Shown piece by piece: positions 51-52,061 of a stretch of DNA of 52,090 nucleotides. The notes under the pieces were generated by a model, which ran no database searches, had not been told where the DNA came from, and saw only the letters and a program-made list of their open reading frames with translations. The stretch's first letter is position 1; each line of letters opens with the position of its first letter. Both the position numbers and the translations under genes were made by a program. The stretch covers positions 1-52,090 of the forward strand of contig PALM01000042.1 in the NCBI GenBank assembly GCA_002706365.1, given 5' to 3'. The DNA is from Flavobacteriales bacterium. GTDB taxonomy: Bacteria; Bacteroidota; Bacteroidia; Flavobacteriales_E; Vicingaceae.

Positions 51-92
51 CTAGGCTCTGTCTAGACTCTAGGTTCTAGGATCTAGGTTCTC
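51..92. repeat. CTAG heptamer tandem repeat
   Basis: CTAG occurs at 51, 62, 69, 76 and 83, so the last four are spaced exactly 7 bp apart, with unit CTAG followed by act, gtt, gat or gtt. The array lies just past the 3' end of the SDR gene. The same unit recurs in reverse-complement orientation at 4230-4262. Confidence 0.75.
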
Positions 93-892: not shown

Positions 893-1045
893 GCACCGCA
901 GGATTTGTAATCCTGCGGAAATGCTACTTAAGGTCAGAAACGGCCACGCAGGATCAGACCTGCCCGCCGGTTTCTCAGCTTTTCGAAAATGCTTCCGCAA
1001 TTACAAATGGTTAAGAGGCGAATGGCAGGCGGGGGTCCTGCGATG
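893..1045. repeat. Compound palindromic (REP-like) element
   Basis: A perfect 10-bp inverted repeat with a 3-nt loop lies at 896-918 (arm ccgcaggatt). The segment 903-920 reappears inverted at 993-1008, matching atttgtaat and tgcggaa with a 2-nt gap. A second pair, 947-968 and 1024-1042, shares the inverted blocks CGCAGGA and CCTGCC. The region is GC-rich against its surroundings and contains no convincing gene. It resembles the palindromic repeats scattered in many Bacteroidota genomes, often associated with REP-type (RAYT) transposases, but no transposase is present here. Confidence 0.7.
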
Positions 1046-1055
1046 CAAGATTGAG

Positions 1056-1090
1056 TCCTTTTTCTTTTCTCTTTATTCTTTGTTCTATTC
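1056..1090. repeat. Pyrimidine heptamer repeat upstream of marC
   Basis: Five consecutive 7-mers, TCCTTTT, TCTTTTC, TCTTTAT, TCTTTGT and TCTATTC, start at 1056, 1063, 1070, 1077 and 1084. It follows the palindromic element directly and ends about 60 bp before the marC promoter box. Together with the palindromic element it accounts for most of the 365-bp gap between the SDR gene and marC. Confidence 0.6.
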
Positions 1091-3647: not shown

Positions 3648-4217
3648 ATGCACACCATTGAGCCACACTACAGTTGGAGAGATTACTATATCGCTTCGGA
3701 AGATGAGCGCTCACCTTTCTACGGCCGTATTTACAGTGAATTCGAATTTACTCATGCCATCTACGATCACTGCATTCACCCTCAATGGGATGAGATCGAA
3801 TCCCCTACCCTTTTCATTAAGATACTAATGGCCGATTATGATGAAGGTTATGCCATTATTGAGATGATCGGCGAGTGGAACGATCTGCTCTACAATGATA
3901 TCATGTTCTTCAAGCGTAATATCATTGACGAATTGATCGCTGAAGGTATTAACAAGTTCATTCTTATTGGAGAGAACATCTTCAATTTCCACTATTCAGA
4001 TGATTCATACTACGAAGAGTGGTTCGATGATGTAGAAGATGGCTGGATCGCCTTTTTGAATTTCAGGGATCATGTGCTGGCCGATATGCAAGCGGCCAAT
4101 ATCGATTCTTATATCGCTTCAGGTGGACAGCTAAACGACCTCAACTGGCGCACCTATACTCCTCAAAACATGTACGAGAAAGTTGAAGGGATGATGACCT
4201 TGAGATTGGGAGTTTAG
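3648..4217 (+). CDS. Conserved hypothetical protein, acidic
   Basis: I do not recognise a named family. The 189-residue product has no signal peptide or membrane helix and is strongly acidic and rich in aromatic residues (Trp, Tyr, Phe), especially around DDSYYEEWFDDVEDGW (about 123-138). It looks like a soluble alpha/beta protein: a central stretch, FILIGENIFNF, reads as a buried beta strand. Gene-like codon usage, a promoter box 7 nt upstream, and a complete frame closely filling the space after murQ support a real gene. Function unknown. Confidence 0.7.
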   Translation: MHTIEPHYSWRDYYIASEDERSPFYGRIYSEFEFTHAIYDHCIHPQWDEIESPTLFIKILMADYDEGYAIIEMIGEWNDLLYNDIMFFKRNIIDELIAEGINKFILIGENIFNFHYSDDSYYEEWFDDVEDGWIAFLNFRDHVLADMQAANIDSYIASGGQLNDLNWRTYTPQNMYEKVEGMMTLRLGV

Positions 4218-4229
4218 TTGAAAAAGAGC

Positions 4230-4262
4230 CTAGAATCGAGAGTCTAGAACCTAGACATTCTA
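4230..4262. repeat. CTAG heptamer repeat, inverted copy
   Basis: CTAG at 4230, 4244 and 4251, with a degenerate CGAG at 4237, keeps a 7-bp register. The segment CTAGAACCTAG is the reverse complement of CTAGGTTCTAG found in the array at 51-92, so it is the same repeat in opposite orientation. Confidence 0.65.
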
Positions 4263-4515: not shown

Positions 4516-4914
4516 TTAATCACAATTGCCACAGACCTTTCCTGCTTGAATTATACTTAACAATTCTACCGCCTCATCCTTTTCACAAACCTTCCAGATC
4601 AGAACATACTGCTCTTCTTCATATTCGCTTCGCAGTCTATAGACTGGACAAGGCTTTTTTCGCGGACTACTTTCTGAAAAATCCACTGATGCAGATTCTT
4701 GGATAGAGAATAACATTGAACTATCGACTTCTAGGCATTTGAGCTGACAAATAGCTCGTTCAGAATAAGATTGAGCGGAACTATCGATAGCCATCATCAC
4801 CCTTCCTTCGGGAGTCCATGATGTCCAGTCTCTCTGTCCAAAGAATATGAATACAAGCAGAAGGCCTAAGCCTACACCTAATAAGTAAAGTCGGAAGCGT
4901 CTCCAGAAAGTCAT
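4516..4914 (-). CDS. Small membrane-anchored DUF4258-like protein
   Basis: A 132-residue protein with one N-terminal transmembrane helix (about residues 8-25) after a basic start, so the rest probably faces the periplasm. The body contains paired cysteines (CQLKC, a later CPVYRLRSEY segment and a C-terminal CGNC). The layout resembles a flavobacterial family annotated as DUF4258, which I recall from memory rather than from a search. It lies downstream of the alanine-dehydrogenase-like gene in the same direction, with a 139-bp repeat-containing gap. Function unknown; the cysteines may form disulfides or bind metal. Confidence 0.6.
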   Translation of the reverse strand: MTFWRRFRLYLLGVGLGLLLVFIFFGQRDWTSWTPEGRVMMAIDSSAQSYSERAICQLKCLEVDSSMLFSIQESASVDFSESSPRKKPCPVYRLRSEYEEEQYVLIWKVCEKDEAVELLSIIQAGKVCGNCD

Positions 4915-4923
4915 TGTTTAATG

Positions 4924-4956
4924 TTGAATGAGTGAATTGTGAATGTGTGAATGTTA
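4924..4956. repeat. TGAAT repeat with 7-8 bp spacing
   Basis: TGAAT occurs at 4925, 4933, 4940 and 4948, a period of 7-8 bp. It opens the 139-bp gap between the DUF4258-like gene and the alanine-dehydrogenase-like gene. Confidence 0.55.
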
Positions 4957-4961
4957 AAAGT

Positions 4962-5040
4962 TCGGAGCTTGGAGTATGGCTGTTGATTTAGTTTCGAATC
5001 TCTTAATCCTTAGTCTTTAATCTTTAGTCCATAGCCCTAA
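4962..5040. repeat. Heptamer repeats (GGAGNNT and TTARTCY)
   Basis: At 4964 GGAGCTT is followed directly by GGAGTAT. From 5003 five 7-mers run without interruption: TTAATCC, TTAGTCT, TTAATCT, TTAGTCC and ATAGCCC (5003, 5010, 5017, 5024, 5031). The two families differ in sequence but share the 7-bp period. A relative of the first, inverted, is found at 51951-51978. Confidence 0.65.
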
Positions 5041-5053
5041 CATGCTTAAAACT

Positions 5054-6271
5054 CTAAATAGCAGCTAATAACAAATCTAGATCCTTATAAGGCAGTTTAA
5101 AATTCTCAGCCAAATACTTGTTCGTTAGCATTCCTCTGTATAGATAAATTCCTGAACGAACCGACATCATCTCTTTGATACAATGGTCTACTCCTCCTCC
5201 ATCTCCCAATTGAAGGATAACCGGTGCAAAGATATTGCTCAGCACATAGGATGCCGTTCTAGCTGCACGAGAAGGAATATTGGGCACACAATAGTGAGTG
5301 ATACCATATTTTTGATAGGTAGGATCTGAATGATTCGTCATTTTTGAAGTCTCAAAACAGCCCCCTTGATCAATACTCACATCCACGATCACCGAGCCTT
5401 CCTGCATCTTCTTCACCATTTCTTCGGTCACGATCACCGGCGACCTTCCGGTTTCAGATCTGATCGCTCCAATAGCTACATCTGCATTGATCAATGCCTG
5501 CTCTAAGACCTTTGGTTGGAAAGTTGAAGTGTAAACTCTGCAGCCAACACCATCTTGCAAACGTCGCAATTTTGATGTGTTGTTACTGAAAACCTTTACA
5601 CTGGCTCCCAATCCCAGAGCTGCTCTGGCGGCAAATTCAGCCACTGCACCTGCACCTATGATCACCACTTCTGTAGGTTTCACTCCTGAGATCCCGCCAA
5701 GCATCATACCTTGACCATCATTCACATTACTGAGATACTCAGCTGCAATCAGAATGGCTGTGTTTCCGGCTATCTCGCTCATTGCACGGATCACCGGTAA
5801 CCTTCCGTTATCATCTTGAATAAAATCATAGGCTATGGCGGTAATCTTCTTATCGATCAATTTCTGGAGGAAATTCTTAGGCTGAACCGGTAATTGCAAG
5901 GCAGAGATCAAGGTTTGTCCGCGCTTTAGCAGCTCGATCTCATCATAGGAAAGCGGCTCCACTTTGAGAATAATATCCGCTCTATAAACCTCTTCAGCAG
6001 AATAAACTACTTGGGCTCCAGCCTCGCTGTAGTCATTGTCGCTAAAATTTGCCTTTTCACCTGCCTTACTTTCAATATAGACTTCGTGGCCATTATTCAC
6101 CAATACTTCTACATCATTGGGAACTAAAGGCACGCGCTTTTCTTGTAGGGAGGTTTCTTTGGGAATCCCAATAAAGAGGTTGCTCTTCTTCTTTTTGACT
6201 TCGGCCAACTCCTCTTGAGGGAGCATCTTTGTGGCCGAACGGGCCAGGGACTTAACTACATCATCCGACAT
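5054..6271 (-). CDS. ald: Alanine dehydrogenase-like protein
   Basis: A 405-residue member of the alanine dehydrogenase / transhydrogenase-alpha family. It has IPKETSLQEKRVPLVP with substrate Arg46, Lys103 (LKVEPLS), the dinucleotide motif GAGAVA, and VDVSIDQGG with the conserved Asp. Two oddities are visible. An extra 30-residue N-terminus precedes the family start. The catalytic His expected after the TLxxxLHL-like strand (His96 in the Bacillus enzyme) is Gln126 here (SALQL). The reaction, oxidative deamination of alanine, is therefore uncertain. Its ATG overlaps the tsaE stop by 1 bp (TAATG), so it is translationally coupled in the porX-tsaE-ald operon. Confidence 0.8.
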   Translation of the reverse strand: MSDDVVKSLARSATKMLPQEELAEVKKKKSNLFIGIPKETSLQEKRVPLVPNDVEVLVNNGHEVYIESKAGEKANFSDNDYSEAGAQVVYSAEEVYRADIILKVEPLSYDEIELLKRGQTLISALQLPVQPKNFLQKLIDKKITAIAYDFIQDDNGRLPVIRAMSEIAGNTAILIAAEYLSNVNDGQGMMLGGISGVKPTEVVIIGAGAVAEFAARAALGLGASVKVFSNNTSKLRRLQDGVGCRVYTSTFQPKVLEQALINADVAIGAIRSETGRSPVIVTEEMVKKMQEGSVIVDVSIDQGGCFETSKMTNHSDPTYQKYGITHYCVPNIPSRAARTASYVLSNIFAPVILQLGDGGGVDHCIKEMMSVRSGIYLYRGMLTNKYLAENFKLPYKDLDLLLAAI

Positions 6272-49005: not shown

Positions 49006-51795
49006 ATGCCCTCATCTATCGATTCTTTAGATCCCAAGAGCAATATCCTGATCAAGGGAGCTAGAGTGCATAATTTAAAGAACGTCGATATTGCCATACC
49101 CCGCAACCAATTGGTGGTGATCACCGGATTATCGGGTTCGGGCAAATCCTCTCTGGCTTTTAGCACTCTCTATGCTGAAGGACAGCGCAGATATGTGGAA
49201 AGCCTTTCCTCCTATGCCCGTCAATTTCTAGGCAAGGTGGAAAAACCAGACGTAGATTATATCAAAGGCGTTGCCCCGGCAATTGCAATTGAGCAAAAAG
49301 TTAACAGTAGTAATTCCCGTTCAACCGTTGGCACAACTACAGAGATATACGACTATTTAAAGCTTTTGTTTGCCCGATTGGGTCGTACATACTCTCCAAA
49401 AAGCGGAAAAGAAGTCAAAAGAGACCGTCCGGAAGACATTATAAACTATGTACAAGCCTTGCCTACCGATAGTCGGATCTATTTGATCGCAGAAAAAGAT
49501 TGGAAGGCAAAAGACAATCAAAAAGAAGAGCTACAGCTGCTCATTCAGCAAGGTTTTAACCGGATTTGGCTTGATGGAAAGGCCATTTTGATCGAAGATC
49601 TGCTTGAAGCTGATGAATTTCCGGAAAAAATTGCCCTTGTGATCGACAGATTTGTGATGTACGCTGACTTTGAAGAAGAAAGTCGGCTTTTCGATTCAAT
49701 AGAGACGGCATTATATGAAGGCAAGCAGACGTGTAGAGTGATCTCTGAGCTCGAAGGCAAGCAGAAAGACAAATACTTCTCAACTGCTTTTGAGGAAGAG
49801 GGAATTGAATTCATGGAGCCGAGCTTGCATCTTTTTAGCTTTAACAATCCTCTGGGCGCTTGTCCGCGATGTGAAGGCTTTGGAAAGGTCATTGGCATAG
49901 ATGAGGACTTAGTGATCCCAAATAAGTCCTTATCGGTCTATCAAGACGCAATAGCTCCCTGGAAAGGAGAAAAACTATCGGCCTGGAAGCGAAAATTGAT
50001 CAATAATGCAGAAGCTTTTGATTTTCCGGTCCACAAACCAATAATAGAGCTCACAGATGAGCAATATGAGCTTCTGTGGAGTGGAAATAGCCATTTCAAG
50101 GGTTTGGATCAATTCTTTGCGCATTTGAATCGCAAGAGCTATAAGATACAGTATCGAGTAATGCTAGCTCGATATAGAGGTAGAACCACATGTCCTGATT
50201 GCAAGGGTAGCAGACTCAGGAAAGAGAGCAATTGGGTGAAAGTTGGAGGTAAATCCATATCCGACTTGGTGAATCTGCCTATTTACCGCTTGAAGGACTT
50301 CTTTGAAAAGATCGAATTAGATAAAAAGGAAAGGGAGATTGCCAAGCGTTTGCTGATAGAGATCAACAATCGTATTGATTATCTACTGAAGGTTGGGGTG
50401 GGATATTTGAGCTTGAACCGACCGGCAGCTACTCTATCTGGGGGAGAAAGTCAGCGAATCAATCTGGCAACTTCATTGGGAAGTAGTCTGGTGGGATCCA
50501 TGTACATTTTGGATGAACCTAGTATTGGTCTGCATCCCAAAGACACGGAACGACTTATAGATATCTTGAAGTCCTTAAGAGACCTTGGCAATACAGTAAT
50601 TGTGGTGGAACATGATGAAGACATCATCAAAGCTGCAGACACTATAATCGATCTTGGTCCGGAAGCAGGAAGCAATGGAGGGGAATTGGTTTTCCAAGGG
50701 AATATTGAAGAATTAAAGAAGAGTGATACCCTTACTGCGAAATACATTCGACATGAATTGAAGGTAAGTGGACATGAGAAACATCCGCTTTCCAAGAATT
50801 TCATTGAAGTATATGGTGCCAGAGAGAACAACTTAAAGGCTGTTGATGTGAAGTTTCCATTGAATGCCTTGAGTGTGGTAAGTGGCGTGAGTGGGTCTGG
50901 CAAATCATCTTTGATCAAGAAAGTCCTCTACCCTGCCCTTCAAAAGCATTTGGGGGAGTATGGAGAGAAAGGTGGAGCCTTTTTGAAGCTTGATGGGGCC
51001 TTAAAGCAGATCGACGAGGTGCAATTCATCGATCAAAATCCTATTGGTAAGTCGTCTCGTTCCAATCCAGTGACCTATATCAAGGCCTACGACGAAATAC
51101 GCAATTTATTCGCCTCTCAGGGACTTTCTAAGAAAAGAGGGTATAAGCCCTCCTTTTTCTCCTTTAATGTCGACGGTGGCCGCTGTGAGGTCTGTCAGGG
51201 CGAAGGAGAGATCACCGAAGAGATGCAATTCATGGCCGACATCCATTTAACATGTGAAGAATGTGGTGGGAAGCGCTTTAAGGATGAGATCTTAGAGGTG
51301 AGATTCAAGGGAAAATCCATATCGGATGTATTAGAGATGACCGTTGGAGATGCTTTGGAGTTCTTCAATGCACAGGAAGATAGTTCAGCGCATAAAGTTG
51401 CCGACCGCATACAGCCATTGATGGATGTAGGATTATCCTATGTGAAGCTTGGGCAGGCATCCGGCACCTTGAGTGGTGGGGAAGCCCAGAGAATCAAATT
51501 GGCATCTTATTTAGGCAAAGGAGGCAGTAAGAACCACATTCTTTTCATTTTCGACGAGCCCACTACCGGATTGCACTTTCACGACATCAGCAAATTGATG
51601 ATCTCTTTTGACGCATTGATCAAGAAGGGACATAGCATAATTGTGATCGAACACAATCCCGAAGTCATCAAACAAGCGGATTGGCTTATAGATCTTGGTC
51701 CGGAAGGAGGCGAAAAAGGTGGAGAACTGATCTATCAGGGCGAAGTTGAGGGGATCAAGAAGGTGGAGAGGTCGCTTACGGCGGAGTATTTGTAA
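49006..51795 (+). CDS. uvrA: Excinuclease ABC subunit UvrA
   Basis: Damage-recognition ATPase of nucleotide excision repair. The 929-residue protein has two ABC domains: Walker A TGLSGSGKSSLAFSTLYAEG with signature LSGGESQRINLA, then SGVSGSGKSSL with LSGGEAQRIKLA. Zinc sites include CPRCEGFG, CPDCKGSR and the CxxC-x19-CxxC module starting CEVCQGEGEI. The start at 49006 comes from the promoter box. The YLSLNRPAATLSGGES and SLGSSLVGSMYILDEPSIGLHP wording differs from the canonical YLxLDRxxxTLSGGE sequence, so it may be a second UvrA paralogue of the genome. Confidence 0.93.
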   Translation: MPSSIDSLDPKSNILIKGARVHNLKNVDIAIPRNQLVVITGLSGSGKSSLAFSTLYAEGQRRYVESLSSYARQFLGKVEKPDVDYIKGVAPAIAIEQKVNSSNSRSTVGTTTEIYDYLKLLFARLGRTYSPKSGKEVKRDRPEDIINYVQALPTDSRIYLIAEKDWKAKDNQKEELQLLIQQGFNRIWLDGKAILIEDLLEADEFPEKIALVIDRFVMYADFEEESRLFDSIETALYEGKQTCRVISELEGKQKDKYFSTAFEEEGIEFMEPSLHLFSFNNPLGACPRCEGFGKVIGIDEDLVIPNKSLSVYQDAIAPWKGEKLSAWKRKLINNAEAFDFPVHKPIIELTDEQYELLWSGNSHFKGLDQFFAHLNRKSYKIQYRVMLARYRGRTTCPDCKGSRLRKESNWVKVGGKSISDLVNLPIYRLKDFFEKIELDKKEREIAKRLLIEINNRIDYLLKVGVGYLSLNRPAATLSGGESQRINLATSLGSSLVGSMYILDEPSIGLHPKDTERLIDILKSLRDLGNTVIVVEHDEDIIKAADTIIDLGPEAGSNGGELVFQGNIEELKKSDTLTAKYIRHELKVSGHEKHPLSKNFIEVYGARENNLKAVDVKFPLNALSVVSGVSGSGKSSLIKKVLYPALQKHLGEYGEKGGAFLKLDGALKQIDEVQFIDQNPIGKSSRSNPVTYIKAYDEIRNLFASQGLSKKRGYKPSFFSFNVDGGRCEVCQGEGEITEEMQFMADIHLTCEECGGKRFKDEILEVRFKGKSISDVLEMTVGDALEFFNAQEDSSAHKVADRIQPLMDVGLSYVKLGQASGTLSGGEAQRIKLASYLGKGGSKNHILFIFDEPTTGLHFHDISKLMISFDALIKKGHSIIVIEHNPEVIKQADWLIDLGPEGGEKGGELIYQGEVEGIKKVERSLTAEYL

Positions 51796-51796
51796 A

Positions 51797-51859
51797 TCGG
51801 AAATCTGAGATCAGAAATCAGAAATTTCTAAATGTGAGATTTGAAATGTGAAATGTGAA
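51797..51859. repeat. Nine-unit heptamer repeat after uvrA
   Basis: Immediately after the uvrA stop nine 7-mers run without a gap: TCGGAAA, TCTGAGA, TCAGAAA twice, TTTCTAA, ATGTGAG, ATTTGAA and ATGTGAA twice, starting at 51797 and stepping by 7. This is the longest and clearest heptamer array in the window. Confidence 0.75.
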
Positions 51860-51909
51860 AGTGATTTATTATCTCAAAGAGATTTAGGTGAAGAACTGAA
51901 CCGCTGTGT

Positions 51910-51927
51910 CTGCCTGCCGGCAGGCAG
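51910..51927. repeat. 18-bp perfect palindrome (CTGCC/GGCAG)
   Basis: The segment reads ctgcctgcc followed by ggcaggcag. It is GC-rich against an AT-rich gap, and shares the CCTGCC core with the palindromic element at 893-1045, so it probably belongs to the same dispersed family. Confidence 0.65.
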
Positions 51928-51950
51928 GTCGCCGTGGTAAAAAACACAAT

Positions 51951-52061
51951 CCTCCATACTTCGAGCTCCTTGCTCCTAAATTAAAAAGCCGCCTTTTCAA
52001 ATCAGAAATATTCAAATTTGAGATATGGGATCTGGGATAAGGGATCTGACCCCTCGACACT
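51951..52061. repeat. Two further heptamer tracts at the window end
   Basis: CCTCCAT, ACTTCGA, GCTCCTT and GCTCCTA start at 51951, 51958, 51965 and 51972. GGGATCT, GGGATAA, GGGATCT, GACCCCT and CGACACT start at 52027, 52034, 52041, 52048 and 52055. The first tract is related, inverted, to GGAGCTT/GGAGTAT at 4964. The 295-bp stretch 51796-52090 thus holds repeats and one palindrome, and no gene I can support. Confidence 0.65.

Follow-up and report, generated by a model that had tools for sequence, protein, structure and literature searches.

The intergenic DNA of this Vicingaceae genome carries a genome-wide class of modules, about four heptads (31-32 bp) long, that have GA in register, sit at gene edges and run with their GA strand outward from the gene. 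Period, length, placement and strand rule are all shown by direct counts. We tentatively propose that these modules work as candidate gene-exit signals, recognised by their spacing and not by one fixed sequence. Among the explanations that we weighed, this one ranks first; a neutral origin by slippage, which we consider doubtful, comes next, and dispersal of a cassette, which appears unlikely, is third.

Period-7 arrays in intergenic DNA

The window, i.e. the whole stretch of 52,090 bp that was analysed, had been the subject of a preliminary description, which named seven intergenic tracts built from degenerate heptamers of differing sequence that keep a common 7-bp register. Lag 7 was indeed the best among lags 5-10 in all seven tracts, with P=0.004 for the weakest one (51951-51978) and P≤0.0009 for the other six, the lowest being <0.00005 (20,000 simulated intergenic tracts). 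The shared register under differing unit sequences is thus borne out, as is the degeneracy of the units within arrays. Two tracts had to be redrawn. The one at 51797-51859 does have period 7, but it is not a single array: it consists of two adjacent four-unit modules of different families and in different registers. In the tract at 4964-5037, best lag 7 holds, but a strict array is present only from about 5002 and not over the full length. The arrays of the window are as follows.

60 to 91, minus strand: family A module, AGAACCT AGATCCT AGAACCT AGAGTCT plus AGAC, 2 bp past the stop of the short-chain dehydrogenase gene 94-798
1056 to 1090, minus strand: AGAAxxA-type array, pyrimidine-rich on the plus strand, 73 bp upstream of a MarC-family gene starting at 1164
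4225 to 4256, plus strand: family A module, AGAGCCT AGAATCG AGAGTCT AGAACCT plus AGAC, 7 bp past the stop of gene 3648-4217
4915 to 4960, plus strand: mixed 7/8-bp array of GAATGTG-type units, adjoining the start of gene 4516-4914
5002 to 5034, minus strand: family E module, GGACTAA AGATTAA AGACTAA GGATTAA, 19 bp past the stop of the alanine dehydrogenase-like gene 5054-6271
51795 to 51825, plus strand: family C module, AATCGGA AATCTGA GATCAGA AATCAGA plus AAT, whose first base is the last base of the stop codon of the preceding gene, uvrA (NCBIfam)
51831 to 51862, plus strand: family D module, AATGTGA GATTTGA AATGTGA AATGTGA plus AAGT, the second module 3' of uvrA, after the family C module
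51951 to 51978, minus strand: weak GGAGxxT/GAAGTAT-like array of about three units (P=0.004)
52015 to 52050, plus strand: degenerate module, AAATTTG drifting to GGGATCT (family F, GGGAxxT)

Other repeats share these gaps. The palindromic CTGCCTGCCGGCAGGCAGG at window positions 51908-51935 lies within a GC-rich intergenic phrase, and other gaps of the genome have phrases like it, among them C20:67418-67622 and C18:47822-48183. Inverted repeats that contain GCAGGAT (GCACCGCAGGATTTGTAATCCTGCGG ... GGGGTCCTGCGATGC) occupy window positions 899-1045, ahead of the MarC-family gene; a similar phrase was seen 3' of an array near C23:40049.

In the window, lags 3-6 and 8-13 gave intergenic identities of 0.26-0.29 and lag 7 gave 0.307; among periods 4-15, strict arrays were found there at period 7 alone. 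Further counts were made on 1.207 Mb (40%) of the 3.018-Mb genome (G000 below), of which 108 kb are intergenic. Gene calling relied on a simple codon-usage method, so that the edges of genes may deviate by some bases. In this material, intergenic identity at lags 7, 14 and 21 amounted to 0.307, 0.294 and 0.289, compared with about 0.27 at neighbouring lags. Coding DNA exhibited no lag-7 excess (identity 0.257) and only a 3-base rhythm. Strict intergenic arrays numbered 125 at period 7 and zero to two at each of periods 4-6 and 8-13; 13 strict period-7 arrays fell in DNA called as coding. Simulation of 38.6 kb of intergenic sequence gave 0.03 period-7 arrays per set, where 29 were observed, and a unit-free segment score yielded 189 segments at lag 7 but 2, 7, 5 and 9 at lags 5, 6, 8 and 9. 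The arrays are therefore intergenic, as had been described, and the genome-wide excess of period 7 over other periods, on which the preliminary description had staked its claim, is present (125 arrays against at most two). The initial observation is confirmed, with a signal stronger than first claimed; its interpretation as a whole is partly supported.

Module families and copy number

Most arrays belong to families that have a GA step in common and differ at other positions: A (AGAxxCT, with xx nearly always RY), B (AGAxxTT), C (RATCNGA), D (RATNTGA), E (GGAxxAA), F (GGGAxxT) and H (GGAGxxT). According to per-position counts, units of families A, B, E and F have five near-invariant positions and about two free ones. 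GA or its complement stands in register in at least 75% of the units of 110 of the 125 arrays. The families were defined on the very data that were then counted, so the unit-free results, on strict arrays, GA register and segments, are the safer ones.

Copy number peaked, independently of family, at 4.5 units or 31-32 bp (74 of 189 segments). Four-unit modules made up 42/64 of family A, 11/19 of B, 24/32 of C and 12/18 of D, whereas family E was broad. Regular tails follow the fourth unit: AGAC in most A and several B modules, AAT in most C and AAG in most D modules. At C10:12671-12902 (L120), GAATTAC-type arrays form an inverted pair around a hairpin terminator, with a single A module alongside after the stop; more unit families exist than those counted here. 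Another locus, C20:64970-65265 (L009), consists of a longer repeat in three tandem copies, with starts about 109-124 bp apart. Every copy includes a single family C array, and these arrays have four, six and six units.

Placement and strand

Arrays often begin 0-15 bp past a stop codon. Within 15 bp of a stop we found 46 of the 125 arrays, against 17.6 ± 2.9 expected from permutation within the same gaps; by the same permutation, starts were avoided (4 of 125 against 9.9 expected). Orientation, too, depended on the gene edge. Up to 60 bp from stops, the GA strand ran outward in 68 cases and inward in 9, and the corresponding numbers at starts were 23 and 3. Gaps are consequently bracketed: GA lay on the plus rather than the minus strand in 54:14 arrays of the left half and on the minus rather than the plus strand in 63:15 of the right half. 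For family A, which is partly self-complementary, orientation had been fixed by the RY rule ahead of counting. Among 21 convergent neighbouring pairs of family modules, 12 were of the same family, where 23% would be expected.

Origin of the arrays

The preliminary description had considered slippage as a possible shared mechanism. Arrays could be made by 7-nt replication slippage as a neutral by-product, survive only where no frame or promoter is harmed and then decay by point mutation; PMC4679880 and PMC4692102 cite Mrazek et al. 2007 for a polymerase-contact idea of such slippage. The restriction of arrays to intergenic DNA and their depletion near starts are in line with such an origin, as are some perfect expansions (AGATGTT seven times at C30:56603, a GGAATAA run from C23:7685 on), an excess of adjacent identical units in family E (14 against 6.1) and the transition-rich differences between adjacent units (378:255). 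However, slippage predicts copy numbers falling from two, and the observed peak is at four. It also predicts similar neighbours, but identical neighbouring units were fewer than chance in family A (24 against 39.8 expected), and modules held more distinct units than chance in families A (3.31 against 3.05 ± 0.10) and B (3.82 against 3.14 ± 0.19), although C and D modules showed no such excess. The dissimilarity of A and B units is the reverse of what recent slippage leaves. Slippage also leaves the strand rule unexplained, as well as the presence of identical unit families at dozens of unlinked loci. Except for family E and a few long arrays, the tracts thus lack the alike neighbours and falling copy number of slippage-type repeats, and simple slippage as the common mechanism is doubtful. 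The claim that they are not a simple microsatellite is upheld by the same neighbour dissimilarity and copy-number peak. A near-perfect 14-bp alternation of AGAGCCT and AGAACCG stands at the very start of a contig (C23:1-87, L149); arrays may break assemblies.

A second possibility, which we judge unlikely, is that of a dispersing cassette: transposition or gene conversion would carry copies of a 31-32 bp module from one intergenic site to another, and its free positions would mutate afterwards. Families common to many loci, the fixed length and the surplus of same-family convergent pairs speak for it, as does an excess of identical B modules (2 pairs against 0.18, P 0.007). For families A, C and D, by contrast, the number of identical modules was not significantly above expectation, and among the modules displayed we noticed neither common flanks nor target duplications. 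Dispersal driven by a reverse transcriptase or a Y1 transposase was not supported: RVT_1 was absent from seven array-rich genomes (G000, G001, G339, G410, G213, G355 and G245) and Y1_Tnp from three (G001, G339 and G189), drafts being included in both sets.

RNA hairpins or terminators, whether from pairing between the arms of a convergent pair or from a single self-complementary module, are improbable. Convergent inverted pairs do exist, family A is self-complementary via CTAG with a mean fold z of −2.1, and one genome (G410) has long matched arms past a stop (L163:250-412). In G000, however, the arms of partners were less complementary than same-family arms of other loci (0.786 against 0.839 ± 0.017, from 12 pairs only), and perfect complementarity between paired arms is therefore not what is kept; with arms anti-matched in this way, perfect hairpins are rejected for G000. 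Families B-F and H gave no fold signal beyond z −1, and two or more modules were present in only 32 of the 108 gaps with family modules. The features of intrinsic terminators, a GC-rich hairpin followed by a U-tract, were absent from the modules, which coexist with separate terminators.

G-quadruplexes, which have been put forward for the four-unit heptamers of Xanthomonas and Nostoc, have very little in their favour here: family F (GGGAxxT) resembles the Xanthomonas unit GGGANTN and 3 of 8 F modules have four GGG runs, but quadruplexes cannot explain the A-D modules, where, judging by sequence, none of 119 has four GGG runs and four GG runs occur in only 4, and these modules keep the same copy-number peak and placement.

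Relation to known repeats

The closest precedent is the tandem heptamers GGGAATC/GGGANTN of Xanthomonas and GGGGA(Y)T of Nostoc, described by Rehm et al. 2015 (PMC4692102). These are intergenic, most commonly have four units, which were linked to G-quadruplexes, and form convergent inverted pairs; close to an ORF they lie downstream on the coding strand or upstream on the non-coding strand (PMC4692102). The G000 arrays share the tandem heptamers in intergenic DNA (125 against 13 in coding-called DNA), the four-unit peak (at 4.5 copies), the strand rule at stops (68:9) and starts (23:3) and the convergent pairs (21, of which 12 are same-family). They differ in that none of the 119 A-D modules has the four GGG runs expected of a G-rich, quadruplex-capable unit, most units have no G-tract at all, several unit families coexist in one genome and A and B units within a module are more dissimilar than chance; the phylum, Bacteroidota, is also another one. 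The G000 tracts thus have the anatomy of the Xanthomonas repeats and lack their G-richness.

The preliminary description had called an equivalent in Bacteroidota interesting. A precedent exists in the phylum, as TAACTGA heptamers are known from marine Beggiatoaceae, cyanobacteria and five Bacteroidetes (MacGregor 2015, PMC4679880). In BOGUAY, they occur in two to six copies, mostly just upstream of starts and in forward orientation (PMC4679880). Intergenic direct repetition of a heptamer, an uneven phylogenetic spread and a GA within the heptamer are common to both systems. The G000 units, however, are other than TAACTGA, whereas the TAACTGA repeats have one unit sequence, and at starts the strand preference is opposite, GA lying on the opposite strand in 23:3 arrays of G000.

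The preliminary description had drawn a parallel to the heptanucleotide STRRs of filamentous cyanobacteria, which holds, although the four-unit heptamers of Xanthomonas and Nostoc (PMC4692102) are nearer than plain STRRs. STRRs and long simple sequence repeats are tandem and have been explained by slippage (Mrazek 2007, as cited in PMC4679880 and PMC4692102). Period 7 and a non-coding location are shared with the G000 arrays. To our knowledge, no orientation rule has been found for the cyanobacterial STRRs. REP/BIME elements are palindromes with REP-associated tyrosine transposases (RAYT). Like our modules, they are short repeats scattered through intergenic DNA, close to gene ends and frequently in inverted pairs. 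Most G000 families, however, have no palindromic core, B-F and H do not fold markedly on themselves, and the array-rich genomes mentioned above (G001, G339, G189) had no Y1_Tnp match.

A candidate gene-exit signal

How the candidate exit signals would come about and be kept can be sketched as follows. Units may arise and turn over by 7-nt duplication or by copying between loci. A putative factor would read the GA strand, in the form of nascent RNA or of single-stranded DNA, wherever transcription exits a gene, whichever its direction, and this reading would hold the modules at about four units and in one orientation. The recognised feature would be GA every 7 nt, with the remaining positions depending on the lineage. 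The copy-number peak, the outward GA strand, the position close past stops and the GA register of the G000 arrays count for this proposal, as do the four-unit peak and strand rule that the G000 modules have in common with the Xanthomonas repeats (PMC4692102), the placement seen again in G339 and the arrays shared at orthologous 3' ends with G001 (both below). A protein with a 7-bp footprint, as initially suggested, may lie behind the shared register, but several families at the same positions are not easily explained by one binding protein as reader.

There was no sign of modules replacing terminators, since hairpin terminators were about as frequent at array genes as at other genes (19% against 26%, P 0.32). 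Two further candidates were rejected: stop codons in all frames, because families C and F do not have an in-register sense-strand stop in every unit, and Rho-type YC spacing, which fits family A only.

The one detailed study that we found on four-unit heptamer repeats ties the number four to G-quadruplexes. The same anatomy with almost no G-tracts suggests another cause of register, copy number and strand. If the spacing-defined reading were true, the Xanthomonas and Nostoc repeats with their G-rich units would belong to a wider class as one of its sequence variants.

Distribution and turnover

The family A pattern TAGARYCTAGARYCTAGA had 222 matches in this genome and 13 in its genus mate G001, but none in 39 other genomes of the family and class. 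In 100-kb samples, eight other genera of the family had 0-3 strict intergenic period-7 arrays each, the array in the G006 sample being a run of N. Across the phylum, 173 of 395 genomes contained five AGA at 7-bp spacing and 71 of the 395 had them at a spacing of 8 bp; as many of these genomes carry other units, the families look lineage-specific. In G339, from another family of the same class and with units such as GTGAAAG and AGACGTC, 9 arrays ran outward and 1 inward, and 8 of 12 lay within 15 bp of a stop (2.9 expected). G001 had 11 of 20 arrays within 15 bp of a stop (5.7 expected), with weak agreement in strand (7:4 outward to inward near stops), and strict arrays were few in G410. Taken alone, these two genomes do not confirm the strand rule, which counts against the exit-signal proposal. 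The locus L163:250-412 of G410 has two heptad arms of 10 and 8 units past a stop, which together make a long and nearly perfect inverted repeat. In contrast to the anti-matched arms of G000, they agree in the order of their units, apart from a 14-bp indel and some C/T differences.

Among 98 ortholog pairs of G000 and G001, an array followed the same gene in both genomes in 4 cases, which represent three independent gaps, where 0.55 were expected (P 0.0005). Restricted to genes whose intergenic region reached 30 bp in both genomes, the numbers were 4 against 0.86 (P 0.001), and with at least 50 bp in both gaps 2 against 0.36 (P 0.03). The small number of independent gaps and this weaker result at 50 bp also count against the exit-signal proposal. 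The heptamers differ in two shared gaps, for example four ATGTGAA against four AAACAAG past the same stop. At the 3' end of uvrA, G000 has arrays and G001 a plain hairpin terminator.

Some genomes of the class are full of arrays, whereas near relatives have few or none, and this variation makes a direct test in culturable strains possible. Among the named genomes that were scanned, those with the A module include Shewanella, Vibrio, Pseudoalteromonas, Brevundimonas, Salinimicrobium, Aequorivita and a Dehalococcoidia genome; several of these modules lie at stop codons. One deltaproteobacterial genome had 224 matches to the A pattern; among the matches listed, all were TAGAGTC and several formed plus-then-minus pairs. 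The heptad modules might, in a tentative wider reading, constitute a phylum-spanning and so far undescribed class of putative nucleic-acid signal, with GA every 7 nt four times over, directed outward from genes and otherwise free in sequence, of which the G-rich repeats of Xanthomonas and Nostoc would be one variant and not quadruplex elements. Tens of AGA arrays spaced at 8 bp, and not at 7 bp, occur in some Bacteroidota genomes (G414, G340, G167 and G219); those of G414 have degenerate units.
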